A DNA stretch of 64,000 nucleotides, from NCBI RefSeq assembly GCF_000621165.1, contig NZ_KK211218.1:241196-305195 (forward strand), given 5' to 3'. This document shows positions 26,738 to 39,111 of the stretch, piece after piece. The first letter of the stretch is position 1, and each line of letters opens with the position of its first letter. The position numbers were made by a program, and so were the translations under genes. Below the pieces are notes generated by a model. The model saw nothing but the letters and a program-made list of their open reading frames with translations. It was not told the origin of the DNA and did not search any database. The stretch is from Enterovibrio calviensis DSM 14347 (GTDB lineage Bacteria > Pseudomonadota > Gammaproteobacteria > Enterobacterales > Vibrionaceae).

Positions 26738-28447
26738 TTAACTTTCCTTGGGTTGCGAAGGTAGCGCCTGACCATTTTGCATGTGTAAATGCACATCTTG
26801 TTGTGGGAACGGAATAGAAATGCCTTCCTTATCGAAGCGGATTTTCACTTCTCGCGTCACGTCCCAGTACACATCCCAATAGTCATCTGTTTTCACCCAA
26901 GGACGCACGATGAAGTCCACCGATGAATTGTTAAGGACATGAACTTTGATCATAGGTTCAGGGGCGCGAAGAACGGCGGGGTGGCTGGTCACGATGTCAT
27001 TCAGAACCTCTTCAACGTGGGGGATGCTATCGCTATAGCTGACACCAAATACCATATCAACACGACGAACACGTTCATGTGTGACGTTCTTAATCACATC
27101 ACCCCAAATCTTACTGTTTGGGACGATGATGATTTGGTTATCGAAGGTTTTGATGGTGGTGTTCACCAAGCTCATGTGGCTAACCTTGCCTTCAACACCC
27201 CCAGCAGAAACGTAATCTCCAACATCGAACGGACGGTAAATTAGCAACATCATACCCGCTGCGAAGTTCGATAACGTATCTTGCAATGCAAAACCGATGA
27301 TGACACCCGCGATACCGAAACCCGTGAGAATTGGCGTCAGGTTCAGCCCGATTTGCGATAAAGCAATCAGGATACCAATGAACCAAACCCCTTTACCCGA
27401 CATCGAAATAAAGAACTCTTGCATCAACAGCGAAAAGTTAAGGTTCTTGGATGCAACAGCTCGTTTTACGACCTTACGAGCGAGATTGGCAACCGTACGA
27501 GCGATGAAAAGAATGACTAAGAATACGAGCAGTTGAAAGATGTGCTGTGGGGCGGTTTCGAGTAGCCAGCCCCAGAATTTGCTGGACCAGGTTTTCACGA
27601 TGGAGAGCAGTACATCGCCACTGAGTAGGTCCTGTGTCACGCTACCCGTGACTTCAAAATACAAACGCTTATATTCCGCGGTCGGAATACCTTCGCTATC
27701 CGCCAGATCGATCATCACTTTAAGGCTACTCGTCGTGATGCTCATTCGACGTTGCGTGACCAGTTTACTCAGTTGAAGGTTAGCTTTTTCTGCCTCTGGC
27801 GCCACACTTAGCTGTGCATCTTCGGCCTTCAATTGCTGCCTGAGGTACTCAACATTTGCTGCAAGCTGCTCAGCACGTTGAGAAATACTCTGTTTTAATT
27901 CGGCTTCTTGGTCGGGGGCGAGTGCGTTTAGCTTCTTCAACCATGCTACGTTTTGCGATGACTCTTCATACATACTATCCAGATACTTACGTGACTCCTC
28001 ATACTCTGCGAGTAGCCCAAATACTTCTTCATTCTTTGCATCATTCAGCTGTTGAGAAAGGACGGATGAACGTTTATTGAGGTATTCAATGGCTTCGTTA
28101 GCATAAATCTGTTGTTGTTTAACTTGGCTGATAAGAAAAGGCTTTCCAACCTCGTCATTGTTCACATTAGCGGCAACGAGGGCTCTTAGTTGCTCGTTTT
28201 TCTGAAACATTTGAAGTTGCAATGCAAGTTTGTCTTCGCCATTGACCTTATCTTGCAGCGAAACCAAATTTGTGAGCTCTTGATGAAGCGCATTGATGCG
28301 ATCCTCAACTTGTTCAGACGCTGACTTTGGCGTTTCCGATGAAGGTGTGGTTGCTGACTCTGCGCTTGCAAAGGCGGGAAAGGAAAAAACAAGAAAAGAA
28401 GCGAAAAAAACCACAGATAAAAAAGACCAAGGCGTGCGTAAACTCAT
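26738..28447 (-). CDS. MscS-family mechanosensitive channel with long periplasmic domain
   Basis: This is a 569-residue channel-type protein. The signal peptide (about 1-29) leads to a periplasmic, largely helical domain (about 40-260) rich in Gln, Glu and Leu. TM segments follow at about 300-385, the last of which (GFGIAGVIIGFALQDTLSNF) is the pore-lining MscS helix. The cytosolic beta domain (RPFDVGDYVSAGGVEGKVSHM, IIVPNSKIWG) and the C-terminal mixed domain come next. It is intermediate in size between MscS (286) and MscK/MscM (over 1,000), like the YbdG/YnaI or YbiO types with extended N-terminus. It would release solutes on osmotic downshift. A palindromic repeat lies in its 5' leader. 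Confidence 0.92.
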   Translation of the reverse strand: MSLRTPWSFLSVVFFASFLVFSFPAFASAESATTPSSETPKSASEQVEDRINALHQELTNLVSLQDKVNGEDKLALQLQMFQKNEQLRALVAANVNNDEVGKPFLISQVKQQQIYANEAIEYLNKRSSVLSQQLNDAKNEEVFGLLAEYEESRKYLDSMYEESSQNVAWLKKLNALAPDQEAELKQSISQRAEQLAANVEYLRQQLKAEDAQLSVAPEAEKANLQLSKLVTQRRMSITTSSLKVMIDLADSEGIPTAEYKRLYFEVTGSVTQDLLSGDVLLSIVKTWSSKFWGWLLETAPQHIFQLLVFLVILFIARTVANLARKVVKRAVASKNLNFSLLMQEFFISMSGKGVWFIGILIALSQIGLNLTPILTGFGIAGVIIGFALQDTLSNFAAGMMLLIYRPFDVGDYVSAGGVEGKVSHMSLVNTTIKTFDNQIIIVPNSKIWGDVIKNVTHERVRRVDMVFGVSYSDSIPHVEEVLNDIVTSHPAVLRAPEPMIKVHVLNNSSVDFIVRPWVKTDDYWDVYWDVTREVKIRFDKEGISIPFPQQDVHLHMQNGQALPSQPKES

Positions 28448-28480
28448 TGCAACAGCTCCATCAGCTCAAATGAACAATAT

Positions 28481-28525
28481 ATATCTAAACAACCTGAAGA
28501 TGGCCTCTTTAGGTTGTTTGGATAT
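28481..28525. repeat. Palindromic repeat in the mscS leader
   Basis: ATATCTAAACAACCT (28481-28495) is inverted at 28511-28525 with one mismatch. Inner AAGA/TCTT pairing gives a stem of about 20 bp. The core AAACAACCTGAAGAT resembles the repeats at 29341-29623 and 31392-31434. Confidence 0.7.
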
Positions 28526-28732
28526 AGAAGTATGGCATTTTGTATGAGGTTGGGTATTCAATCTGGCTCTCACATTTGAACAAACAGGGCGATTATTCAG
28601 ATGGGCTTTGTCTAGGTTTTTAACGTTGTCGATATATTGTCATATTTTACTTAAATTTACGTTCGCTTGATTGATTAGTGACCAGTCGGAGCGCAATATA
28701 TATTACCTTTCACTGTATAAGGAGATTCACCG

Positions 28733-29266
28733 ATGAGTCATCCGTCACCATTATCCAAACAGACGATCTTCTTTCATTGGTTAGTTGCAATAAGCTTTAT
28801 TGCAGTTCTAGCGTTTGGCTTGTATGTGGAAGATTTGCCAAAGGGCCCGGAAAAAGGCGAGCTAATTGGCTTACACAAATCCTTCGGCGTGCTGGTTCTC
28901 TTGTTAGCCGTTTCCCGGTTGTTATGGCGCTTTAAAGAAGGGGCGATCTCTTCTATTCCTGGCTCTCCAAGATGGCAGGAAAAAATCGCGACAGCCGTGC
29001 ATCACCTGCTTCTATTAGCCACGTTATTGATGCCGATTTCGGGTATTGCCATGTCAATCGGTGGCGGTCGTGATGTGGGCATTTTTGGCATGACACTGAT
29101 TACCGCTGGAGAGAAAAACGAGTTGCTCGGTCAGGTCGGTCACGTGACCCATGAAGTACTTGCGAATATTGTGATGGTCACGCTGGCATTGCATGTACTT
29201 GGCGCGCTGAAACACCACATTGTCGATAAAGATGCCACGCTGAGACGCATGCTAGGGAAATCCTGA
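28733..29266 (+). CDS. Cytochrome b561
   Basis: This is a 177-residue inner-membrane di-heme b-type cytochrome with four TM helices. Candidate heme-ligand histidines lie in the helices: FFHWLVAIS (about residue 14), GLHKSFGVL (about 47), VHHLLLLAT and GHVTHEVLANIVMVTLALHV. This is the bacterial CybB pattern, known to oxidise quinol or, in CybB, to pass electrons from ubiquinol to superoxide. The start has AAGGAG upstream. It is closed by a strong terminator, so probably monocistronic. Confidence 0.92.
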   Translation: MSHPSPLSKQTIFFHWLVAISFIAVLAFGLYVEDLPKGPEKGELIGLHKSFGVLVLLLAVSRLLWRFKEGAISSIPGSPRWQEKIATAVHHLLLLATLLMPISGIAMSIGGGRDVGIFGMTLITAGEKNELLGQVGHVTHEVLANIVMVTLALHVLGALKHHIVDKDATLRRMLGKS

Positions 29267-29294
29267 TATCGCTTATTTGCCGTATCTCGTGTTG

Positions 29295-29322
29295 AAAGCC
29301 ACCTGCTGAAGGTGGCTTTTTC
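29295..29322 (+). terminator. Terminator after the cytochrome b561 gene
   Basis: AAAGCCACCT (29295-29304) pairs with AGGTGGCTTT (29310-29319), followed by T-rich sequence. Confidence 0.88.
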
Positions 29323-29339
29323 GTTATCCGTAATACACC

Positions 29340-29605
29340 TATACCCAAGTAACCTGAAGATGCAGGATTCAGCGAGCTTTACTGACGTTATGATCAAGGC
29401 GTCCCTTTGCCGATGTAGTGAGCTCCATTAAAAAGGGACAACACCGAGCATGGCGTCAGTAAACTCGCCCGAAGGGAGGCCCTCAGAGCGTCCACTTCAT
29501 CGTTAAATTCCTGTGAAATAGAATGACTATTCCTACAAAAATTCGCCTTGAATTGAACACTCTGAGGGCCTCTGAAATCGAGCATCTTCAGGTTGCTTGG
29601 GTATA
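29340..29605. mobile_element. MITE-like element with 23-bp terminal inverted repeats
   Basis: The termini 29341-29363 (starting ATACCCAAG) and 29582-29604 (ending CTTGGGTAT) are inverted repeats with one mismatch in 23 bp. Inside are nested stems: 29372-29387 with 29454-29468, GTCCCTTT 29401-29408 with AAAGGGAC 29432-29439, and 29476-29491 with 29557-29572 (15 of 16). No transposase ORF fits in 266 bp. It is best described as a non-autonomous, highly structured repeat such as a MITE. Mobility is inferred; no clear target duplication is seen. Confidence 0.65.
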
Positions 29606-29623
29606 CCCAAGCAACCTGAAGAT
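29584..29623. repeat. Perfect 40-bp palindrome
   Basis: Positions 29584-29603 are the exact reverse complement of 29604-29623, with centre GGGTATACCC. It is formed where the right end of the MITE-like element meets a second copy of the same end, head to head. A further inverted match (29625-29640 with 29362-29377) shows that more of the element is repeated. Confidence 0.85.
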
Positions 29624-29742
29624 CTTCGCTGAATCCTGCTAATCGAGAGCTATCTTCACTTTTCAGCCTTAACAAACTGATACCTTTAGAAGATATGCAC
29701 AGTTCGTGGTCGTGCTTCTTTATTATTTTCAAAGGAGAGATC

Positions 29743-30567
29743 ATGAGACGGATCATATTCAATCAAAAGGGCGGTGTAGGTAAATCCAGTATATCGGTCA
29801 ACCTCGCGGCACTCAGTGCAGCAAGTGGCAAGAAAACGCTTCTCATCGATTTAGATATTCAGGGAAACAGTAGTCATTACCTAGGTATTGATATCAACGC
29901 CAAGAATGACAAAACGGTGGCTGACCTTTTTGATCAAACCGTGTCATGGTTTTCTGTATCCACGCCAATTAAGCAATTCCCTCAACCTACCGCGTATGAA
30001 AACCTCGATATTATTCCTTCTAGCCCCCGCCTTGCTGCGCTCGAACCAGAGCTAGAACGCCGTTACAAAATATACAAACTGCGTGAAGCGCTAGACGAGC
30101 TGGAAAGTGAGTATGAGCGTATATACATAGACACGCCACCAAACCTGAATTTCTACAGTAAAGCAGGGCTAATCGCGGCGCATAACCTGCTTATTCCTTT
30201 TGATTGCGATACGTTTTCTCATCAAGCGTTGTTGACGTTAATGGATAATCTTGCGGAATTGCGTGACGATCATAATCGTAATCTGGCGCTCGAAGGGGTG
30301 GTGGTGAATATGTTTAATGCGCAGGCGAAATTTCCGGCTCAGATTATCGAACGAGTACGAGAACTTGGTTTGCCCTTGCTTGAGCCTTTTATCCCGCAAT
30401 CAGTGAAGATGAAAGAGTCACATTATCACCAAAAACCCTTGGTTCACTTTGCTCCTCAGCACAAACTCTCAAAACAGTTTGCCGAACTGTACGCGCGACT
30501 AGAAAGCCCACAAGAAAAAACATCTTCAACAGAGACGTCGGCAAATAATGAAGGAGCGAAAGCCTAG
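29743..30567 (+). CDS. ParA/MinD-type ATPase without ParB partner
   Basis: This is a 274-residue P-loop ATPase. ATG 29743 is chosen because AAAGGAGAG lies just upstream. The deviant Walker A is at residues 9-15 (KGGVGKS), followed by the A' motif LLIDLDIQGN and the IYIDTPPNL motif. This is the small ParA fold without the N-terminal DNA-binding domain of plasmid type Ia proteins. No parB or parS-like site is seen, so it is an orphan ParA; such proteins position cargos (chemosensory arrays, carboxysomes, secretion or flagellar complexes) as well as DNA. The SatD-like gene follows after 94 bp behind its own promoter. Confidence 0.9.
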   Translation: MRRIIFNQKGGVGKSSISVNLAALSAASGKKTLLIDLDIQGNSSHYLGIDINAKNDKTVADLFDQTVSWFSVSTPIKQFPQPTAYENLDIIPSSPRLAALEPELERRYKIYKLREALDELESEYERIYIDTPPNLNFYSKAGLIAAHNLLIPFDCDTFSHQALLTLMDNLAELRDDHNRNLALEGVVVNMFNAQAKFPAQIIERVRELGLPLLEPFIPQSVKMKESHYHQKPLVHFAPQHKLSKQFAELYARLESPQEKTSSTETSANNEGAKA

Positions 30568-30588: not shown

Positions 30589-30637
30589 TGTAACCTTTGA
30601 CAAAGTTACAATAAAGCGTAACATTAAATTATGTTAC
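30589..30637 (+). promoter_or_regulatory. satD promoter inside GTAAC/GTTAC inverted repeats
   Basis: A sigma-70-like promoter TTGACA (30597-30602), a 16-bp spacer and TAACAT (30619-30624) lies in two inverted repeats: TGTAAC/GTTACA (30589-30594 and 30605-30610) and GTAACAT/ATGTTAC (30618-30624 and 30631-30637). A further GTAAC is at 30646-30650. The repeats overlap -35 to +1, as an operator would. Confidence 0.65.
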
Positions 30638-30661
30638 CAATTAACGTAACTCAAGGCGAAA

Positions 30662-31402
30662 ATGAAAACTCAAGATATACACTATGCGGGCGTGATTACC
30701 GGCGACCTTGTGGGCTCGACAGAGATGAGCGAGTCCACACGTCAGGACTGTCTAGCCGCACTGGAGCGCTGTTTTTTACAGTTTCGTCAACACGATGCCA
30801 GTCAACGGGTGAGCAGCCAACAGGCTAGCAATCACCAAGCGAGTAATCATTCCCAGATACTGGATGACTCAGGTTCTGACGTCCGTGACAGCGACACGAT
30901 GGGTGAGATCTATCGTGGAGATGCTTTCCAGCTCTATACCCGCTCACCTGAACACCTTCTGAGTATGGCGCTGACAATTCGTATTGCACTCAAGAGCCTA
31001 GGTGAAGACGCCCGTTTATCATTGGCCGTTGCGCCCGCGAGTGAGCGGCAACTCCCTGTAAGAATGGCCAACAATTCTGATGCTTTCTTGCTATCAGGCC
31101 GTCATCTAGATGGCATGAAAAACCAGCGATTGGCGTTTTCCTCTAATGACGAAGAGTTTGCTCGTGACGCTCACATGGTTCTTTCATTGCTTGATGACCA
31201 TATCACGCCGCTGACGACCAAAATGGCAGTTGCGTTGTCGGTTTGGATGCGCCAGCCCAATGCCCAACATGCAGAGCTTGCAAAGGATCTGGGTATAACT
31301 CGAAGCGCATTCACAAGAATCATCAATCGAGCCAATTACACGCGCATCGACGATACCTGTAGATGGTATGCTGGCAGGCTTTTACGTTACCTACCCAAGT
31401 AA
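30662..31402 (+). CDS. SatD-like protein: cyclase-like N-domain plus C-terminal HTH
   Basis: This 246-residue protein matches the SatD family in order of motifs. The N-terminus VITGDLVGST (D15) is followed by a low-complexity Ser/Gln/His insert (about 46-70), then EIYRGDAFQLYTR (D87), ALTIRIALKSL and SDAFLLSGRHLDGM. The spacing DLVGST...GDAF...aRhL recalls class III nucleotide cyclases, where two Asp bind metal; that resemblance is my reading, not an established annotation. Residues about 180-246 form a HTH (AELAKDLGITRSAFTRIINR). The stop codon lies inside a palindromic repeat. A DUF3307 membrane gene follows 59 bp on, a pairing common for this family. SatD was named in the Streptococcus mutans sat locus; its biochemistry is unknown to me. 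Confidence 0.75.
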   Translation: MKTQDIHYAGVITGDLVGSTEMSESTRQDCLAALERCFLQFRQHDASQRVSSQQASNHQASNHSQILDDSGSDVRDSDTMGEIYRGDAFQLYTRSPEHLLSMALTIRIALKSLGEDARLSLAVAPASERQLPVRMANNSDAFLLSGRHLDGMKNQRLAFSSNDEEFARDAHMVLSLLDDHITPLTTKMAVALSVWMRQPNAQHAELAKDLGITRSAFTRIINRANYTRIDDTCRWYAGRLLRYLPK

Positions 31403-31434
31403 TCCTAATACTGCATCTTCACGTTGCTTGGGTA
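31392..31434. repeat. Palindromic repeat overlapping the satD stop codon
   Basis: TACCCAAGTAA (31392-31402) is inverted as TTGCTTGGGTA (31424-31434) with one mismatch. The right half, GCATCTTCACGTTGCTTGGGTAT, matches the terminus of the element at 29582-29604 with one difference. The left arm supplies the last codons and the TAA stop of the SatD-like gene. Confidence 0.75.
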
Positions 31435-31461
31435 TCAACATTGTCGCAAGGAGGCTTAAGG

Positions 31462-32190
31462 ATGGTACTAACAATACTGTTGGTATTGGTCGTGATTCAT
31501 GTGTGTGTCGAGTTTTACTTATTTCCCGTAGTCACCCGCCGCGCAAGACATGTTTTTGTTTCCGTTATTATTGAAAGCGTCCTGTCTTTAATTGCACTCT
31601 ATTTGCTCGCCATCCCTTTGATTTGGTCATTGGTCGGGGCGCTGTGTATAGGTTTATCCAATGTCACGGTCTCTGTGTGGTTTCGTTCTGCGCCAAACGG
31701 GTTGCGCTATTTGTTCGTCAAACAACTTTTGCATCTGTTCATATTGGTTTTGGTTGTTCTCTACGTTGTGAGCAGTGAGGATCGCGTGGCAGCCAAGCAC
31801 GCGTTCGAACAAACTGACTGGTGGACACTTTTCTGCTGGGCAACCGCATACTTGCTTGCCATGAAACCGTCTTCGACTGCTATTGCGCTACTTCTGCAAA
31901 ACTGGACTGAAGAAGTGACTCACTCAGCCCCAAGCGGAAGCAACAAGCCGCTGAAAGACGCAGGGGCATTCATCGGATACTTTGAGCGAATGCTTATTGT
32001 CACCTTTGTGCTTTGGGGGCAGTTGCCTGGTGTAGCCTTGGTGCTGGCAGCCAAATCTGTATTTCGCTTTGGTGATTTGAAAGATCACGGTAGCCGAATG
32101 TTCACCGAATACGTGATGCTTGGTACGTTTGCGAGTGCGCTGTTTGGTATCGGTTGTGGCTTGCTCGGCGGGTATTTGAGTCAGATTTAA
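31462..32190 (+). CDS. DUF3307 multi-TM membrane protein
   Basis: This is a 242-residue membrane protein. ATG 31462 has AAGGAGG seven bases upstream. The first TM helix LLVLVVIHVCVEFYLFPVV matches the start of DUF3307 proteins (a helix with His and acidic residues). A second match is the FVKQLLHLFILVLVVLYVV helix, comparable to their DQxxH helix. At least six hydrophobic segments are visible, with a soluble stretch at about 155-180. It is encoded after the SatD-like gene and probably cotranscribed. Membrane partner with cyclase-like partner resembles the layout of two-gene nucleotide-signalling systems, but a function is not established. Confidence 0.75.
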   Translation: MVLTILLVLVVIHVCVEFYLFPVVTRRARHVFVSVIIESVLSLIALYLLAIPLIWSLVGALCIGLSNVTVSVWFRSAPNGLRYLFVKQLLHLFILVLVVLYVVSSEDRVAAKHAFEQTDWWTLFCWATAYLLAMKPSSTAIALLLQNWTEEVTHSAPSGSNKPLKDAGAFIGYFERMLIVTFVLWGQLPGVALVLAAKSVFRFGDLKDHGSRMFTEYVMLGTFASALFGIGCGLLGGYLSQI

Positions 32191-32206: not shown

Positions 32207-32908
32207 CTAGATGCCTTTCTTTTCGGGTTGCGCATAGCCACAGATCTTGCTGGTGGATAGCTTCAACTCTGCCAGCATTTTCACCGTTGCGATGGCAGCT
32301 TGAACGCCATCAATCACAGGCACACCAAGCGCTGACTGCAACTTCTCCTGCCAATGGCTCATTCCGGCACAGCCCAATATCAAGACTTCACTGTTCGATG
32401 TATCCAATGATGATTTCGCTAATCCGAGTATTTGTGTAAACGCATCGGGATCGGTTTCTAGCGAAAGTACAGGAATGTTGGATGCGACGATAGCGGCGCA
32501 TTGTCGTTCTAATCCATACATCAAAACGTTGCGTCGTATGATGGGCACCGAGCGCTGAAGCGTGGTCATCACCATGAAAGAATGACCAAGATAACCGGCT
32601 GTTTTCATCGCCGCTTCACCGATGCCAACGACGGGGCGTTCCGTCACTTCGCGCACCGCATCTAGCCCTGTATCGTCAAAACACGCCACGACATAACCTA
32701 ACGCGTCAGATTCCTGCTTTTCGAGTGTTTGCACCTGTTTCACCAAATGGTGCGCCGCCATTGCACCGTCATAATGTCCTTCAATGCTCAAAGGTGACGC
32801 CTTGCAGAAGTGGAATCGCGTATAAGTCGCGGTGTTGGTTTGGCTCAGGCTGTCTGAAAGTTGTTGGGTCATTGCCTCAGAGCCATTGGGGTTGATGACG
32901 TCAATCAT
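32207..32908 (-). CDS. Aspartate/glutamate/hydantoin racemase family protein
   Basis: This is a 233-residue cytosolic enzyme with the two-cysteine racemase design: VVACFDDTGLD carries the first Cys (about residue 70) and LGCAGMSHW the second (about 185). The N-terminus IDVINPNGSEAMT and the GIGEAA motif are typical of the hydantoin/allantoin racemase branch, cofactor-independent. It is the last gene of an ABC importer operon, which suggests that the imported compound or a derivative has a stereocentre to be inverted. The true substrate is unknown. Confidence 0.85.
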   Translation of the reverse strand: MIDVINPNGSEAMTQQLSDSLSQTNTATYTRFHFCKASPLSIEGHYDGAMAAHHLVKQVQTLEKQESDALGYVVACFDDTGLDAVREVTERPVVGIGEAAMKTAGYLGHSFMVMTTLQRSVPIIRRNVLMYGLERQCAAIVASNIPVLSLETDPDAFTQILGLAKSSLDTSNSEVLILGCAGMSHWQEKLQSALGVPVIDGVQAAIATVKMLAELKLSTSKICGYAQPEKKGI

Positions 32909-32943
32909 AATCTTCTCTCATATCCTTTCTCATCGTCTTCTCC

Positions 32944-33765
32944 CTAGTGAGTGGCTTGAGCACGGGTTTTGGCGCGCAGGGTGCGAACAGCAACAAGCGC
33001 CAGAACGATTAACGACAGCGAGATGAACGTCGTGAGTGTGCCCAGCGCATAGAGAACGGGCGTGGTTACATTGGTGGTCATGGCGAAGAGTTCGAGTGGC
33101 AGGGTATTGAAGCTACCAGAAGTCATAAGCGTTCTAGCAAATTCATCGTAGCTTAGGGTGAAGCCAAACAAACCGACGCCAACAAGGCTTGGTGCAATCA
33201 AAGGCAGCAGTACATAGCGAAACGTCTGCCAAGGCGTCGCACCCAGATCATCCGAGGCCATTTCATAGCTTGGGTTGAAGCGGTTGAATACGGCAAACAT
33301 GATGAGTAAGCCAAAGGGCAGGGTCCACGTCATGTGCGCGCCAAAACCTGAGCTGTACCAATCGGCGGTGAAACCCATTCGGTCGAACATCAACCCAATC
33401 CCCAAGCTGACCAAAATGGACGGGATAATCAGGCTCGCAAGGGTGACATAGAAAATCACACTGCTGCCTGCAAAGTGGCGGCGAAACGCCAGCCCAGCCA
33501 TCAAAGAAATCACGACCGTGCTGATCATCACGGCGAAACCCAGTCCTAAAGAGCGAACCAGCGCCATACTAAAATCACCGACCGCCTGACGTTCAAACAG
33601 TTGGGCATACCAATGCATAGACGTGCCGCGCATTGGAAAAGTCAGCCCGCCTTGTTCACCTTGGAAAGAGAGAATGGCAATGGTGAACGTTGGGCCATAA
33701 AGAAACAGAACGAATAGGCCAAACAACAATGAACAGATAGCAAAAGCAGTTTTGTTGTTTTTCAT
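32944..33765 (-). CDS. ABC importer permease, PotC type
   Basis: This is a 273-residue inner-membrane permease with six TM helices. The binding-protein-dependent transport motif is ASDDLGATPWQTFRYVLLPLIAPSLVG (about 165-190), the EAA loop that contacts the ATPase. ATG 33765 has AGAGG upstream and lies 1 bp after the stop of the partner permease gene. It is homologous to PotC-type subunits of spermidine/putrescine importers. Polyamine or another cationic amino-acid-like compound is the likely class of substrate. Confidence 0.9.
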   Translation of the reverse strand: MKNNKTAFAICSLLFGLFVLFLYGPTFTIAILSFQGEQGGLTFPMRGTSMHWYAQLFERQAVGDFSMALVRSLGLGFAVMISTVVISLMAGLAFRRHFAGSSVIFYVTLASLIIPSILVSLGIGLMFDRMGFTADWYSSGFGAHMTWTLPFGLLIMFAVFNRFNPSYEMASDDLGATPWQTFRYVLLPLIAPSLVGVGLFGFTLSYDEFARTLMTSGSFNTLPLELFAMTTNVTTPVLYALGTLTTFISLSLIVLALVAVRTLRAKTRAQATH

Positions 33766-33766
33766 C

Positions 33767-34636
33767 TCACACCTCTTTGCGAATGTCGACCAAGCGGAAC
33801 AACACAATCAACATCACGATGACCGTCATGAGTAGCACCACCGCACCGGCTGCCGCCGCGGGGTATTGCAGCAAGGATATTTCGTTATAAATCAGGATCG
33901 CCACGTTGGCTTTTATACCGCCTCCCATCACTTTCACCGTGATGAAATCGCCCATGACTAACGTGAAGATAAAAATGCTGCCGATGATGATGCCTGATTT
34001 ACACAGCGGAATGATGATGTCGACCAACACACGGAAGCCATTTGCCCCTGAATCTACCGCCGCCTCAATTTGGCTGCGATCAATGCGCATCATGCAGTTA
34101 AAAATAGGAACGACCATGAACATGGTGTAGAGGTGAACATACGCCAGCACAATGGCGAAATCGCTGTAGAGCAGCCAATCCAGAGGGGCGTCTGTTATTC
34201 CTGATGATTGAAGCCCTGTATTGATTAACCCGTTTCGCCCGAGCAGCGGGATCCAAGAGATCATCCGAATGATGTTTGAGGTTAAAAATGGCACGGTACA
34301 GATAAGAAACAGGATGGTTTGCGTGCTGTTACTTTTGACATAGAAAGCCAAATAGTACGCGACAAAAAAACCAATCGTTAAGGTAAGGAACCAGGTGATT
34401 GAGGCGTACTTCAGCGTTTGCAAATAGGCTTGCAACGTCACGCTGGATGTCAGGAGGTATTCATAGTTCTCAAAGATAAAATCCGGGATGATGGAAAATT
34501 CGTTGTAGTCCCAGAAGCTGACAATCACGATCACCGCGATGGGGAAGATGAGAAAAGCCGTCAACATTGACGCCAGCGGTGCGGCCTGCCAATAACTGTT
34601 GTTGCTTGATTTAGCTAAGCGCATAGCGTTATCCAT
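33767..34636 (-). CDS. ABC importer permease, PotB type
   Basis: This is a 289-residue inner-membrane permease, partner of the PotC-type subunit. TM helices start at about residue 17. The EAA loop is EAAVDSGANGFRVLVDIIIPLCKSGII (about 192-218). The N-terminal start is not fixed, since neither ATG 34636 nor the ATG four codons later has a good ribosome site. It is encoded between the binding-protein gene and the second permease, in the usual order. Confidence 0.9.
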   Translation of the reverse strand: MDNAMRLAKSSNNSYWQAAPLASMLTAFLIFPIAVIVIVSFWDYNEFSIIPDFIFENYEYLLTSSVTLQAYLQTLKYASITWFLTLTIGFFVAYYLAFYVKSNSTQTILFLICTVPFLTSNIIRMISWIPLLGRNGLINTGLQSSGITDAPLDWLLYSDFAIVLAYVHLYTMFMVVPIFNCMMRIDRSQIEAAVDSGANGFRVLVDIIIPLCKSGIIIGSIFIFTLVMGDFITVKVMGGGIKANVAILIYNEISLLQYPAAAAGAVVLLMTVIVMLIVLFRLVDIRKEV

Positions 34637-34675
34637 TAGCGGGCCGACGTCGAGCGTCGGCCTGAATGTGAAGGA

Positions 34676-36010
34676 TCAAGAAACGATGAACTCGTTCCAT
34701 TTACGGAGCATGTATTTGTTTTCATCCATCACGGAGTTCCAACAAGCGACGCTTCCCATGCGATCCCAGTAAGAGCCGCCATCACGCACTGCGCCGGCTT
34801 TCTCCATCAATTGCCCTGTTGGACTCAAAATGTCGCTGGCAGCAGGCTTGCCATCAATCCAGAAATCCCATTCGTTTTCTGTCATAAAGGCTTTGGAGGT
34901 TTCAGGTGCCGCGCTGTAGTAACCCTGACGGTTCAAATACGCACCCACCCAGCCAGAGAGATACCAATCGAGGTATTCGTAGGCGGCATCCAATTCCAAC
35001 CCTGAAAGGTGAGAGGCTAGGCCAAGGCCGCCACCCCACGCGCGATAACCTTCTTCCAGCGGCTGATAGACACAAGGAATGCCTCGGCTACGAACGGCGG
35101 CAACGGCAGGCGACCACATACTTTGAATGACCACTTCGCCCGACGCCATGAGGTTGACGGATTCATCGAATGACTTCCAGAAGGCGCGGAATTGCCCCTG
35201 TTTCTTGGCTTCAATCAGCACCGCGATGGTTTTGTCGATTTCTTCTTTTGTCATGTTGCCCTTGTCGGCGTATGACACTGCACCCATGGATTCACAGATC
35301 ATGGCGGCGTCCATGATGCCAATGGACGGGATGTTAAGAATCGATGCTTTGCCTTTAAATGCAGGGTCCATAATGTCGGACCAATTCTTGATTGGGCGAT
35401 TGATAAGGTCAGGACGGATACCAAGTGTATCTGCGTTATAAATGGTAGGGATTAATGTCATCCAATCGGTGGGTGACGACGCAAACTTAGTGGAATCTCT
35501 GCCTTCGACAAACCCAACGGTGTGAGGCGCTGTGCCTTGTGCAATCGGAGAGTCGGGCGTCAGTTTACCGTTGATGAACAATGGCGAGATTTTATCAAAC
35601 AGCTTGAGTCTTGATGTATCCAACGGTTGCAGCACTTTTGCCGGGAACACCTTTTTACAAATCCAATACTCAATGTCAGCAATGTCATAAGAGCCAGGTT
35701 GCGTCACGGCACGCTGTGTCACGCTGTCGGAATCCAAAGACGTGAGTTGGAGATTGAAGCCGAGATCTTCCTTACATTTCTCAGAAACCGCGTTGAGGTT
35801 GGATACGCCAGTACCGAATTGGCGCAAGGTAATGTTTTTAATGTTCTGAGCCCAAATCATGGGGAAGCCAGTAATTAAGCCTGAACTGGCAGCGGCTGCG
35901 GTCGCGACTGCCGCGCCTTTGATGAGTTTACGGCGGGTTTTATCTTGAGGCGCATTATCGTCCTGATCGATCACGGTCGTGCTCTTGATTGCAGATTTAT
36001 CGTCTTTCAT
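34676..36010 (-). CDS. ABC importer periplasmic binding protein, Tat-exported (PotD-like)
   Basis: This is a 444-residue binding protein. The N-terminus has a twin-arginine-type signal: TRRKLIKGA (about 25-33) followed by a hydrophobic run and IWAQ, so it is probably exported folded by Tat. The mature part has the polyamine-binding-protein type layout (RQFGTGVSNLN, LNIPSIGIMDAAMICESMGA, and the region EEGYRAWGGGLGLASHLSG). It is longer than PotD (about 348). Substrate class is inferred from its permease partners. Confidence 0.88.
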   Translation of the reverse strand: MKDDKSAIKSTTVIDQDDNAPQDKTRRKLIKGAAVATAAAASSGLITGFPMIWAQNIKNITLRQFGTGVSNLNAVSEKCKEDLGFNLQLTSLDSDSVTQRAVTQPGSYDIADIEYWICKKVFPAKVLQPLDTSRLKLFDKISPLFINGKLTPDSPIAQGTAPHTVGFVEGRDSTKFASSPTDWMTLIPTIYNADTLGIRPDLINRPIKNWSDIMDPAFKGKASILNIPSIGIMDAAMICESMGAVSYADKGNMTKEEIDKTIAVLIEAKKQGQFRAFWKSFDESVNLMASGEVVIQSMWSPAVAAVRSRGIPCVYQPLEEGYRAWGGGLGLASHLSGLELDAAYEYLDWYLSGWVGAYLNRQGYYSAAPETSKAFMTENEWDFWIDGKPAASDILSPTGQLMEKAGAVRDGGSYWDRMGSVACWNSVMDENKYMLRKWNEFIVS

Positions 36011-36027
36011 ATTCCTTTCCTTGGTAG

Positions 36028-37047
36028 CTAATGGGTAATGGTGAAAGTGTTCATCTGATTCTTGTGCCAGTTGAGGTCGACTCTTTGGCCAGAGGAAACA
36101 AGGAGGGGATCAAGCTTGTGTTCGGGAATAAAGCACATGCAGCGCTGGCCGTTGCCAATGTCGGCTTCAACAAAGTAAAACTGCGCCTGAAACTCCACAT
36201 CAACAATTTCAGCGGGCATGGATATGGTCTCGGCGCTTGGTGTGTGTGTCGGTGCAGTGATGTGGATATGATCGGCGCGCACGGAAAAAGAAGGAGGAAA
36301 ATCGGGGTGAGTGTCATTTGCGTTGATCACGTTATGACCACCGATAAAGTCAGCCACAAATGCCGACGCCGGTTTTTCAAAGATTGACTTTGGGTTTCCG
36401 CTTTGTTCAATGACGCCATCTTTCATCACAACTGCGATGTCGGCGAGCGCAAATGCCTCTTCCTGAGAATGCGTGACATGGATGAACGTCAGCCCTAGTT
36501 GCCGTTGAATGCGTTTCAGCTCTTTTCGCATTTGAATACGAAGGAAAGGGTCGAGCGCGGAAAGGGGCTCATCGAGCAATATGACATCAGGTTTACAGAT
36601 CAAGGCTCGGGCGAGGGCAATGCGTTGCTGCTGGCCGCCAGATAAATGCGCAGGAAGTTTATGCTGATGCTCCAACATATCGACAAGGGCGAGCATGTCT
36701 TTTGCGGCTTGAGTGCGTTCAGTTTTGCTGACTCCCGCCACTTTCAACCCGTAGGCGACGTTTTCCATGCACGTCATATGGGGGAACAGGGCATAGTTTT
36801 GAAACATCATCGCCGTCCCCCGTTGCCTTGGCGAAAGTTGTGTGACCTCATTACCGCTTAAACGCACCGTGCCGGATGTGACGCTTTCGTGCCCTGCAAT
36901 CATTCTTAATGTGGTGCTCTTCCCGCACCCGCTTGGACCGAGCAAACAACAATACTGGCCAGCTTCAATGGTTAAGTTCAGCGCACTGACGGCAGGACTG
37001 TTTCCATAATGTTTGGTCAGGTTGATTAGCTCAACGTTTCCTTTCAT
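36028..37047 (-). CDS. ABC importer ATPase, PotA type
   Basis: This 339-residue ATP-binding subunit energises the importer. Walker A GPSGCGKST is at 37-45, the ABC signature LSGGQQQR at 135-142 and Walker B VILLDEPLSALD at 155-166. The C-terminal 90 residues look like the TOBE regulatory domain of the MalK/PotA group. It is the first gene of the operon, preceded by a 16-bp palindrome that may be the operator of the divergent GntR regulator. Confidence 0.93.
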   Translation of the reverse strand: MKGNVELINLTKHYGNSPAVSALNLTIEAGQYCCLLGPSGCGKSTTLRMIAGHESVTSGTVRLSGNEVTQLSPRQRGTAMMFQNYALFPHMTCMENVAYGLKVAGVSKTERTQAAKDMLALVDMLEHQHKLPAHLSGGQQQRIALARALICKPDVILLDEPLSALDPFLRIQMRKELKRIQRQLGLTFIHVTHSQEEAFALADIAVVMKDGVIEQSGNPKSIFEKPASAFVADFIGGHNVINANDTHPDFPPSFSVRADHIHITAPTHTPSAETISMPAEIVDVEFQAQFYFVEADIGNGQRCMCFIPEHKLDPLLVSSGQRVDLNWHKNQMNTFTITH

Positions 37048-37063
37048 ACCACTCTCCTAAAAT

Positions 37064-37079
37064 AGATTGCTAGCAATCT
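37064..37079. promoter_or_regulatory. 16-bp palindrome, candidate GntR operator (ABC operon side)
   Basis: AGATTGCTAGCAATCT is perfectly palindromic and lies just upstream of the PotA-type gene and its ribosome site. A 13-of-16 copy occurs exactly 200 bp away at 37264-37279. Confidence 0.6.
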
Positions 37080-37263
37080 TGAAGAGTCTTTCAGCAGTTT
37101 TTGTGCCAACAAAAGGCTGAGAATAAAAACAGAGGGTTAGAGAAAGATCTACAAAATACCGGATATTTATTGCGTCATGGAGGCGCGTAAACTTGCCAAT
37201 TTGGTGCAACAAAAAAGAATGGATACCGAACACTTGGAATGTATGATCAAATATGCAATTCTT

Positions 37264-37279
37264 AAATTGGTAACAATCT
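37264..37279. promoter_or_regulatory. Second copy of the palindrome, at the gntR start
   Basis: AAATTGGTAACAATCT matches the 37064-37079 site at 13 of 16 positions and abuts the ribosome site of the GntR gene. This fits control of both divergent units by one regulator. Confidence 0.5.
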
Positions 37280-37290
37280 AAGGAGTGACA

Positions 37291-37986
37291 ATGAGCATTC
37301 TGAGCCAATCTCGCAAAGAAGTGGAAATCAATCGGATCATTGATGCCATCAGCCAAGCCGTTAGCGATCAACGCTTACCGCCCGGCACGCGCTTGGTCGA
37401 AGGCCAACTGGTGGAGACGTTTGGGGCAAACAGGAATCACGTAAGGTCAGCGATTCAGCGTTTGGCACTGCGCCGTATTGTGACTGTGCTGCCGAACAAA
37501 GGTGCGAGTGTTTCCGAGCCGACGCTAGAAGAAGCGAACGATGTGCTTTCTGCTCGCGCATTGGTTGAACAAGGCATTATCGAAAATCTGGTGGGAAGAG
37601 CGACAGACTTGGATTTGTCGCGACTCAAGCGACATGTACAGAAAGAAGTTGCTGCCAGAGACAAAGGAAGCCGAAGAGAAATCATTAAGCTTTCTGGCGA
37701 TTTTCATATTCTGTTGGCGGTACTGAATGGGAATCGTGTGCTCACCGAGATCCTCACTGACTTGATCACTCGAAGCTCACTCATCATCGCGCTATACCAA
37801 CGTGACAAGCAGTTAGATTGTGGTTGCCACGACCACGAACACATTATCCATGCGATTGCGAATGGTGAGAAAGGCAAAGCCATTGATTTGATGCGAACAC
37901 ATCTTCAGCAGGTAGAGTCAGGCTTGAACCTCGCATTTTGGAAAAACCGGACGGTGGATCTCGATAATGTGTTTTCAGATTCATGA
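37291..37986 (+). CDS. GntR-family regulator, FadR/FCD type
   Basis: This is a 231-residue transcription factor. ATG 37291 has AAGGAG upstream; the GTG at 37285 is the first in-frame start but overlaps that site. Residues about 10-75 form the GntR winged helix (LPPGTRLVEGQLVETFGANR, HVRSAIQRLALRRIVTVLPNKGASV). The C-terminal all-helical FCD domain carries conserved Asp/His metal-ligand positions (FHILLAVLNGN, HEHIIHAI). FCD regulators bind small carboxylates or amino-acid-like effectors. It lies divergent from the ABC/racemase operon and likely represses it. Confidence 0.92.
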   Translation: MSILSQSRKEVEINRIIDAISQAVSDQRLPPGTRLVEGQLVETFGANRNHVRSAIQRLALRRIVTVLPNKGASVSEPTLEEANDVLSARALVEQGIIENLVGRATDLDLSRLKRHVQKEVAARDKGSRREIIKLSGDFHILLAVLNGNRVLTEILTDLITRSSLIIALYQRDKQLDCGCHDHEHIIHAIANGEKGKAIDLMRTHLQQVESGLNLAFWKNRTVDLDNVFSDS

Positions 37987-38071: not shown

Positions 38072-39034
38072 TTAACTCGCCACTCGTTCAAGTTGGCGTT
38101 GTTTCCAAATTGAAGCACCAATACCGACAGTCAGCGAGGCCAATATAACGCCCAGTGATACCGGCGTAGCGATAGCAAATGGTGTTTCAATCAGTAGCAT
38201 CTTGGTACCGATAAAGCACAACATGAATGCCAACGTGTGGTGAAGGTACGCAAACTTGTTCAACATGCCGCCAAGCACGAAGTACAGTGAACGCAAGCCA
38301 AGTAGGGCGAACACATTCGCAGCCAATACGAGGTAAGGTTCTTGTGTTACCGCAAAGATAGCGGGGATGGAATCCAGTGCGAACATCACGTCTGTCATCG
38401 CAATCACCATCACAACCACCAGCATCGGCGTAGCAAGAATACCCAGTGAATCACGAGTGAACAGCTTGTTTCCATCGTAGTCAGGGCTAACGCGCAAGAA
38501 TCGTTTTACCAGTCTCACCGCAAAGCTGTCTGAGAAGGATTCGTTCTCTTCTCCATGTTGGCGCCACATTTGTACGCCAGTCCAAATCAAGAAGAAACCG
38601 AACAGGTAAAGTACGAAGTGGAATTCTGCAATCAGCGGAGCACCCAGTGAAATCATAATGCCACGCAGCACGAGCGCGCCGACAATACCCAGCATCAATA
38701 TGCGGGGAACATGATCTTCTGGCACCTTGAACTGTGCAAAAATCAGAGCAAACACAAATAAGTTATCGACGCTCAGCGATTTTTCAAGCAAGTAACCCGT
38801 AACAAACGAGGTGGCTGCTTCGCCGTTCGTCAGTTCACTGACGGGTGCCATATGTGGCCAATATAGATAAATAGCACCTGCAAATACGAACGCGAGAGAG
38901 AACCAGAACACACTCCACATAGCGGCGCTGCGAAAACTGATTTTTCCACGAGTGATAAGCAAGTCGATGCCGAGCATCAAAACGGTAAGAACTAACAGGC
39001 CTTCGTAGCCTGAGAAAAGTTCACTTAGGAACAT
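38072..39034 (-). CDS. alx: TerC/Alx-family membrane protein
   Basis: This is a 320-residue inner-membrane protein from ATG 39034, which follows a GGAGG. Several TM helices (about 10-30, 42-62, 80-105, 115-145, 190-260 and 275-310) carry the family signature YLLEKSLSVDNLFVFALIF and DVMFALDSIPAIFAV, with buried acidic residues likely for metal or proton transport. Family members (Alx, YkoY) export manganese. The leader upstream contains a yybP-ykoY manganese riboswitch, which supports a manganese role here rather than tellurite resistance. Confidence 0.9.
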   Translation of the reverse strand: MFLSELFSGYEGLLVLTVLMLGIDLLITRGKISFRSAAMWSVFWFSLAFVFAGAIYLYWPHMAPVSELTNGEAATSFVTGYLLEKSLSVDNLFVFALIFAQFKVPEDHVPRILMLGIVGALVLRGIMISLGAPLIAEFHFVLYLFGFFLIWTGVQMWRQHGEENESFSDSFAVRLVKRFLRVSPDYDGNKLFTRDSLGILATPMLVVVMVIAMTDVMFALDSIPAIFAVTQEPYLVLAANVFALLGLRSLYFVLGGMLNKFAYLHHTLAFMLCFIGTKMLLIETPFAIATPVSLGVILASLTVGIGASIWKQRQLERVAS

Positions 39035-39111
39035 GACACCTCCGGTGCGCGGAGGATGAGGGGGCAAAGGAGCACCTAACCAACCGCGCAGCTATAAGCA
39101 AATAAGCGAAT

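Follow-up and report, generated by a model that had tools for sequence, protein, structure and literature searches.

A SatD-like palm-domain protein and its membrane partner form a widespread gene pair with operator-like arrays at its promoter

Background

The stretch of DNA analysed here, referred to as the window, comprises 64,000 nucleotides of the 5.5 Mb genome of Enterovibrio calviensis DSM 14347 (contig NZ_KK211218.1, positions 241,196 to 305,195) and carries a two-gene unit in which a SatD-like gene is followed by a gene for a DUF3307-like membrane protein. The locus raises the question of what a protein with cyclase-like motifs does beside a membrane protein. A sequence-only reading of the window, which had both open reading frames (ORFs) in the right places, likened the pair to Pycsar and other nucleotide-signalling defence systems; its left edge, position 30589, falls where an operator-like array begins, which goes unmentioned in its description. 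In this study, we report that SatD and a membrane partner form a real and widespread pair, found in many bacteria and some archaea, and describe the predicted fold and invariant residues of SatD, the modular build of its partner and the repeat arrays in satD promoters. The most likely of the four mechanisms considered, to which we give nearly an even chance, is that SatD, an autoregulated protein with a palm domain and a helix-turn-helix (HTH), restrains the membrane core of its partner.

Results

Distribution of the pair

The names SatD and DUF3307 are applied to the window proteins because their relatives match those families. The window SatD-like protein itself has no match to SatD (PF16264, the family of the Streptococcus mutans sat operon) among its six Pfam families, the cut-off not being reached, and the membrane protein scores 12.0 bits against DUF3307 (PF11750), below the cut-off of 23. 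The SatD family was matched at E up to 1 by 20 of 53 SatD homologues, in a scan for which 25 of 66 families were listed. One of seven homologues scored singly exceeded the SatD cut-off of 29 bits (L071, 33.8), as did L226 (53.5), L227 (110.9), L229 (54.2) and L204 (42.2). The nearest named relative found was Enterovibrio sp. ZSDZ42, with 85% identity over the best SatD segment.

The partner adjoined SatD in 81 of the 82 SatD loci fetched (L002-L030 partly duplicating L031-L041), the exception, L021, being a short stretch of 2,643 bases. On genome contigs it stood next to SatD in 52 of 52 loci, once as a split ORF, and the two genes overlapped by 1 or 4 bases in 28 of them, when first possible starts were used. 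The split partner is that of Enterovibrio sp. JCM 19048 (L036, 5582-6351), where SatD is intact and an assembly error is possible.

Among 296 Bacteroidota genomes, 80 had SatD, 77 had DUF3307 (a single copy each) and 73 had both (Fisher P 1e-55). The two families, whose co-occurrence the sequence-only reading had left to be checked, are thus strongly linked, with SatD present in 73 of the 77 DUF3307 genomes, and every one of the 29 new loci fetched among the 30 best-scoring of this phylum had SatD directly upstream of DUF3307. Seven Bacteroidota genomes had SatD and no DUF3307: a core-type partner (described below) stood beside SatD in four, and no partner was detected in three. In Pseudomonadota, SatD was found at E 1e-5 in 21 of 398 genomes, all of which matched the partner model; 19 more genomes matched the partner model only. 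Of these 19, seven were examined, and they held a diverged SatD beside the core in three cases (G311 at E 0.0012, G437 and G377), a stand-alone DUF3307 in two (G203 and G457), and DUF3307 with a degenerate core and no SatD seen in two (G273 and G325).

Plasmid records with the pair came from E. coli, Klebsiella, Enterobacter, Pseudomonas, Sphingomonas, Salinivibrio, Vibrio, Segatella and three haloarchaea. Seven of 15 records from one search were opened and five of 20 from another, the fifth being from Fusobacterium, whose SatD (53.5 bits) is accompanied by a partner of this kind. Two plasmids (L118 and L124; 3,770 and 4,424 bases) carry the pair as their main cargo, and matches were also found to five Klebsiella records of 3,770 bases; the DNA of the small-plasmid pair gave no match when searched in E. 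coli genomes. The SatD tree mostly follows lineage. In it, the Vibrionaceae plasmid copies (L121 and L230) are distant from those of Enterovibrio, and L129, a single copy from a gammaproteobacterium, is placed among Bacteroidota with moderate support (0.79-0.87). Stops were reported within two SatD genome matches, where by their coordinates they seemingly fall at the frame end, and the SatD matches in G579 and G591 also carry reported stops.

A scan of viral contigs with the SatD alignment yielded no relatives among 14 candidates, and one with the partner alignment yielded a single relative among 33. This contig does carry SatD, so the SatD scan had missed it. The pair lies there (IMG/VR contig L225, 3940-5330) at the contig end, with genes resembling phage structural genes on one side and one resembling SusD on the other, both judged by eye, perhaps at a prophage edge. 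None of the phage records matched the window SatD or the one partner protein searched.

The C-terminal core of the membrane partner

The structure model of the partner is all helical, with a predicted local distance difference test (pLDDT) score of 84, and Foldseek gave it no convincing PDB match (best E 2.3). DUF3307, which corresponds to the N-terminal half of the partner, was matched by 45 of 52 partner homologues (Pfam, E up to 1). This half is degenerate in the window protein, missing from partners of 124-171 amino acids (L204, L229 and L237-L240), and replaced by a different N-terminal stretch in L235, L236 and L241. The conserved core that adjoins SatD lies C-terminal to the stretch matched by the Pfam model. 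In an alignment of 64 partners, which takes in some selected because they lack DUF3307 and two for which SatD was not detected, residues G172, E175, K198 and G221 were each found in all 64, R202 in 63, R176 and S225 in 62, and E216 in 61. The core is kept where the DUF3307 half is lost or replaced, which indicates that SatD goes with the core; judged from this alignment, it is the three-helix C-terminal core, rather than DUF3307, that accompanies SatD. Stand-alone DUF3307 proteins of 133-137 amino acids, with neither the core nor a SatD gene nearby (L242 and L248), also exist, and the Pfam domain therefore has another life. A DUF3307 protein of this stand-alone size (134 amino acids) is listed for the jumbo phage RsoM2USA (PMC8504454).

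Predicted fold and metal site of SatD

The AlphaFold model of the SatD-like protein (pLDDT 89) places its N-domain in the nucleotide-cyclase/GGDEF/Cas10 palm superfamily. Its strands (E) and helices (H) follow the order E-H-E-E-H-E-H-E, and include the palm core of strand 1, helix, strands 2 and 3, helix and strand 4. The Asp pair of the superfamily is present, with D15 ending strand 1 and D87 in the hairpin of strands 2 and 3, and both residues align with the Asp residues of cyclases. D15 and D87 were each found in all 75 non-redundant homologues, archaea included, while RGDxFQ around D87 and S145-G146 were nearly always kept. As modelled, this is probably a metal-dependent nucleotide-processing domain.

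The sequence-only reading had seen here a motif order resembling that of class III nucleotide cyclases, namely GDLVGST with D15, a variable insert, RGDAF with D87 and a third motif with an arginine, R147. Both Asp motifs are present in the window protein, and the insert is real, D15 and D87 being 72 residues apart. Of the 120 relatives measured, 119 have a spacing of 34-44 and one a spacing of 62. Structure prediction and residue conservation, which had been named as checks, also bore out the likeness, but at the level of the superfamily and not as class III identity: PF00211 is not among the six Pfam families of the window protein, and R147 varies, being R in 53 of 121 sequences and otherwise mostly Q, E, K, T or H. 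Neither the window genome as a whole nor any of the 17 genomes of the same genus that were searched gave a PF00211 match. Class III nucleotide cyclases have a transition-state Asn and Arg after the fourth strand; at the position matched to this Asn in a by-eye register, all 121 sequences have F, Y, L or Q.

GGDEF and Cas10 palms match the SatD model about as well as class III cyclases do, and GTP cyclohydrolase III ranks high among the structural matches of the palm domain. The best match in a viral structure library was a phage protein with a guanylate cyclase domain (E 0.011). By sequence alone, the match of the SatD profile to cyclases of known structure was weak (E 0.16-0.39, with a Fic protein interspersed). 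The separate cyclase set aligned with hhalign consisted of 20 domains chosen by a motif pattern that itself requires the Asp and GD motifs.

Operator-like arrays in satD promoters

The window array overlaps a TTGACA box (Table 1). An array of this type was present in all 12 Enterovibrio/Grimontia loci aligned, the window included, the first half-site being degenerate in L040 and L041. In Pseudoalteromonas, alternating GTAAC/GTTAC half-sites with a 28-bp period lie upstream of satD in 12 aligned loci out of 18, and the remaining six have 5 or 6 half-sites each; their N8 and N10 spacers are swapped relative to Enterovibrio/Grimontia. The arrays of the two groups are alike though the proteins are only about one-third identical.

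In 86 non-redundant satD promoters, identical 6-mers 28 bases apart numbered 334, as against 6.9 in shuffles. A stricter rule, which required both a direct 6-mer pair at 28/29 bp and an inverted 6-mer pair at 9-19 bp, selected 55 of 89 satD promoters in the non-redundant set, as against 3 of 300 controls, with 1.8 of 89 for shuffled satD promoters and 0-3 of 89 at three other spacings. This control excluded starts within 700 bp, since an earlier one (19 of 250 with a 28/29-bp 6-mer array) was contaminated, we suppose because divergent genes share the satD intergenic region. A looser 5-mer rule selected 75 of 89 satD promoters, 14 of 300 controls and 9.4 of 89 shuffles, some hits being runs of A or T. 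The letters of the half-site vary by lineage (GTAAC, TATCG, TATAAG, ATCAAG, GCAAGC and others), and among close Bacteroidota relatives a change of NQ to KR in the recognition helix goes with GTAAC in place of GTAAT (L166 versus L164 and L169).

The three-half-site pattern gave four hits in the window genome (three in this array and one on contig 12) versus five for the reversed control; single matches are thus at chance level and only the overlapping array, which was found at this operon alone, is special. The lineage-variable 28-bp arrays suggest that SatD probably represses its own operon, with several copies of its HTH perhaps bound side by side. The positions of these features are collected in Table 1. 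For the membrane protein, comparison with homologues suggests the ATG at 31462 as the likely start.

Table 1. Features of the SatD locus in the window
Feature	Position	Strand	Description and basis
Operator-like array	30590..30650	+	Five alternating half-sites, period 28 bp; sequence read directly
Half-site 1	30590..30594		GTAAC
-35-like hexamer	30597..30602	+	TTGACA, between half-sites 1 and 2; putative promoter element
Half-site 2	30605..30609		GTTAC
Half-site 3	30618..30622		GTAAC
Half-site 4	30633..30637		GTTAC
Half-site 5	30646..30650		GTAAC
SatD-like gene	30662..31402	+	246 amino acids; cyclase-superfamily palm domain and C-terminal HTH
Palm domain	30680..31165	+	Strand/helix order in AlphaFold model; invariant Asp
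D15 codon	30704..30706	+	Separated from D87 by the insert
D87 codon	30920..30922	+
C-terminal helical/HTH region	31217..31390	+	Residues 186-243; HTH Pfam matches below cut-off; helices in AlphaFold model
DUF3307-like membrane protein gene	31462..32190	+	242 amino acids; longest ORF 31363..32190
C-terminal core of membrane protein	31939..32157	+	Residues 160-232; alignment of 64 sequences including partners without DUF3307

Genomic setting and defence genes

The pair locus is largely syntenic within genera. In Enterovibrio/Grimontia the order is mechanosensitive channel, cytochrome b561, ParA-like gene and pair, and the pair has other gene settings in Pseudoalteromonas, Alteromonas, Rheinheimera and Niabella. 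Of the genes at 26738-30567 of the window, the mechanosensitive channel and the orphan ParA-like gene recur in all 11 relatives, and cytochrome b561 in 10 of the 11. Downstream, 32207-37986 (about 5.9 kb) holds an Asp/Glu racemase gene, two permease-like genes, one binding-protein-like gene and others, the transporter labels, unlike that of the racemase, having been given by eye. In 8 of 11 Enterovibrio/Grimontia relatives, a relative of the next gene (38072-39067) stands immediately behind the pair or is separated from it by a single short ORF; the intervening segment is probably a lineage-specific insertion.

Neither window protein matched any PADLOC family up to E 1. Twenty regions of 12 kb around the pair (12 from Bacteroidota and 8 from Pseudomonadota, on contigs of 0.24 to 4.8 Mb) were compared with 20 control regions about 60 kb away, one of which (L205) yielded a single ORF. 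The ORFs used were 115 of 171 neighbours, hand-picked for closeness, and 117 of 192 from the controls. At E 1e-5, 65 PADLOC families matched around the pair and 117 in the controls, which is no enrichment; the matches listed for the pair regions, covering the first 25 families, were mostly to helicase-type models with 2 members each. The lack of enrichment and the sharing of the loci within genera weaken the phage-defence role that the sequence-only reading had proposed. On one Sphingomonas insulae plasmid (L123, 1-9434), the pair is flanked by genes annotated as helicase, TIR, ImmA/IrrE, Pycsar effector and cyclase.

Discussion

In the mechanism that we favour, the C-terminal HTH of SatD would bind the 28-bp-period arrays in its own promoter and repress the operon, and the palm domain, through a nucleotide made or bound, would hold the membrane partner in an inactive state. 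Within the partner, activity would reside in the C-terminal core, whose conserved charges (E175, R176, K198, R202 and E216) lie in predicted helices and may be buried in the membrane. Were SatD or its nucleotide lost, the operon would be derepressed and the core set free, to the harm of the cell, a behaviour like that of a toxin-antitoxin module in a layout like that of Panoptes.

Autoregulated toxin-antitoxin modules have operator repeats at the operon promoter, and their second gene is toxic alone and neutralised by the first. The SatD pair resembles them in that the regulator comes first, the genes often overlap, an operator-like array stands at its own promoter, the pair travels as plasmid cargo and, in one species, the first gene is essential yet accessory; it differs in that the putative antitoxin carries an enzyme-like palm and in that the toxicity of the partner is putative. 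The species concerned is S. pyogenes, where satD is reported as the only accessory gene to reach the highest range of essentiality by transposon sequencing; libraries of emm1, emm28 and emm49 all showed it to be essential, and 178 of 249 genomes carry it (PMC11323703). Such a pattern is antitoxin-like, and argues for restraint of the partner and not for Pycsar-like activation.

Panoptes (OptS/mCpol and OptE/2TMbeta) is described as a system in which the product of a Cas10-like palm enzyme restrains a membrane toxin (PMC12657230, PMC12657218). Like it, the SatD pair consists of two genes, for a palm protein of the Cas10/GGDEF superfamily with the Asp pair and for a membrane partner, and by our proposal it would likewise restrain a harmful membrane effector. 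Unlike Panoptes, whose effector is a two-transmembrane (2TM) beta-barrel, the SatD partner is all helical in its model, and SatD has a C-terminal HTH and promoter arrays and lacks defence-gene enrichment around it. Neither Panoptes paper mentions SatD or DUF3307 in its main text, and mCpol is absent from the 50 SatD fold matches listed; we infer the bearing of Panoptes, and of S. pyogenes satD essentiality, on the pair. Class III cyclases (Rv1900c and Ma1120) and Pycsar share with SatD the predicted fold, the strand order and two Asp at matching places; SatD differs in lacking a PF00211 match, in its variable R147 and in the fused HTH. The literature consulted on sat genes (e.g. PMC12077213, PMC11323703) covers acid tolerance and protein translocation, not nucleotide signalling; satD of streptococci or Fusobacterium is also named in PMC10326533, PMC10210942 and PMC5786311. 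Our literature searches, in which SatD was not combined with 'cyclase', found no study of SatD and DUF3307 as a unit, none naming both and none on SatD as an antitoxin.

Several points weigh against the favoured mechanism. The pair has no known toxicity or product, and a core-type partner of S. pyogenes satD could not be established. The SatCDE genes of S. mutans cluster with Ffh and YlxM (PMC12077213), so that satD essentiality could be polar or indirect. SatD was partnerless in 3 of 80 Bacteroidota genomes (two weak partial matches and, in G501, a strong one) and DUF3307 lacked a detected SatD in 4 of 77; the three of these four that were examined had no SatD in the 4.5 kb fetched. Genomes with only one partner are not what a strict antitoxin predicts, unless the models missed something. 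The best Foldseek row for SatD was not below E 0.001, and the Cas10 rows had a root-mean-square deviation near 16. Even the looser rule found no array in 14 of 89 satD promoters, that of the E. coli plasmid copy included, and the recognition-helix Arg does not follow the half-site everywhere, L130 and L131 having Arg with ATGTAAT. Finally, genus-level synteny without PADLOC enrichment resembles a settled physiological locus.

Such a locus would suit a role in stress physiology without toxicity. SatD would then be a one-component repressor that senses a nucleotide through its palm, and the partner would be a transporter, a channel or an envelope-stress protein, serving for instance acid tolerance. 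The sharing of the loci within genera, the lack of defence enrichment and the presence of the families in 77 to 80 of the 296 Bacteroidota genomes all agree with this; the sat operon is linked to acid tolerance in work cited in PMC12077213 and PMC11323703, and the promoter arrays also fit a one-component regulator. We nevertheless hold it to be somewhat unlikely, because an essential-but-accessory satD is odd for a dispensable stress regulator, the pair occurs on small plasmids with little else, an Asp pair kept across bacteria and archaea exceeds the needs of a sensor, and restriction of the overlapping array to this operon in the window genome gives no sign of a wider regulon.

Defence of the Pycsar or CBASS kind, in which phage infection would lead SatD to make a cyclic nucleotide that opens the partner, appears improbable. 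A cyclase-superfamily fold beside a membrane partner is what it calls for, and the Sphingomonas plasmid, with its annotated Pycsar effector and adenylate/guanylate cyclase genes, and the copy at the end of a viral contig speak for it. Against this stand the PADLOC results, in which neither protein matched and the controls had more matching families, the sharing of the loci within genera, and the failure of any phage record to match the window SatD or the one partner protein, despite the DUF3307 protein listed for RsoM2USA (PMC8504454); activation would also leave the essentiality of satD unexplained. We think it very unlikely that the palm is catalytically dead or performs another reaction, such as hydrolysis of the GTP cyclohydrolase III kind, with the pair acting by direct protein contact. 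GTP cyclohydrolase III is among the best structural matches and, in the by-eye register, Phe, Tyr, Leu or Gln stands where cyclases have the transition-state Asn, but both Asp residues are kept and, nearly always, so are RGDxFQ and S145-G146.

Conclusions

If SatD restrains the core, this could account for a satD gene that is essential yet accessory in S. pyogenes, and the Panoptes-like layout would gain an HTH-fused, self-regulated member that occurs in roughly one in four of the Bacteroidota genomes sampled. A bolder reading, which we put forward tentatively and consider rather doubtful, is that SatD and the core represent an ancient, widespread class of inhibitory nucleotide-signalling modules of bacteria and archaea, in which a DNA-bound palm polymerase, arrayed along its operator of 28-bp period, makes a nucleotide that holds a three-helix membrane effector closed, and in which disturbing the nucleotide or the DNA-bound SatD releases both repression and effector. 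If true, it would unite Cas10-like palm chemistry, control of its own operator and a membrane killing or stress response in a single two-gene unit. With the present findings, two families of unknown function gain a joint, testable anatomy, consisting of a candidate palm enzyme, a putative operator whose geometry is known and a minimal membrane core in which individual residues are named.
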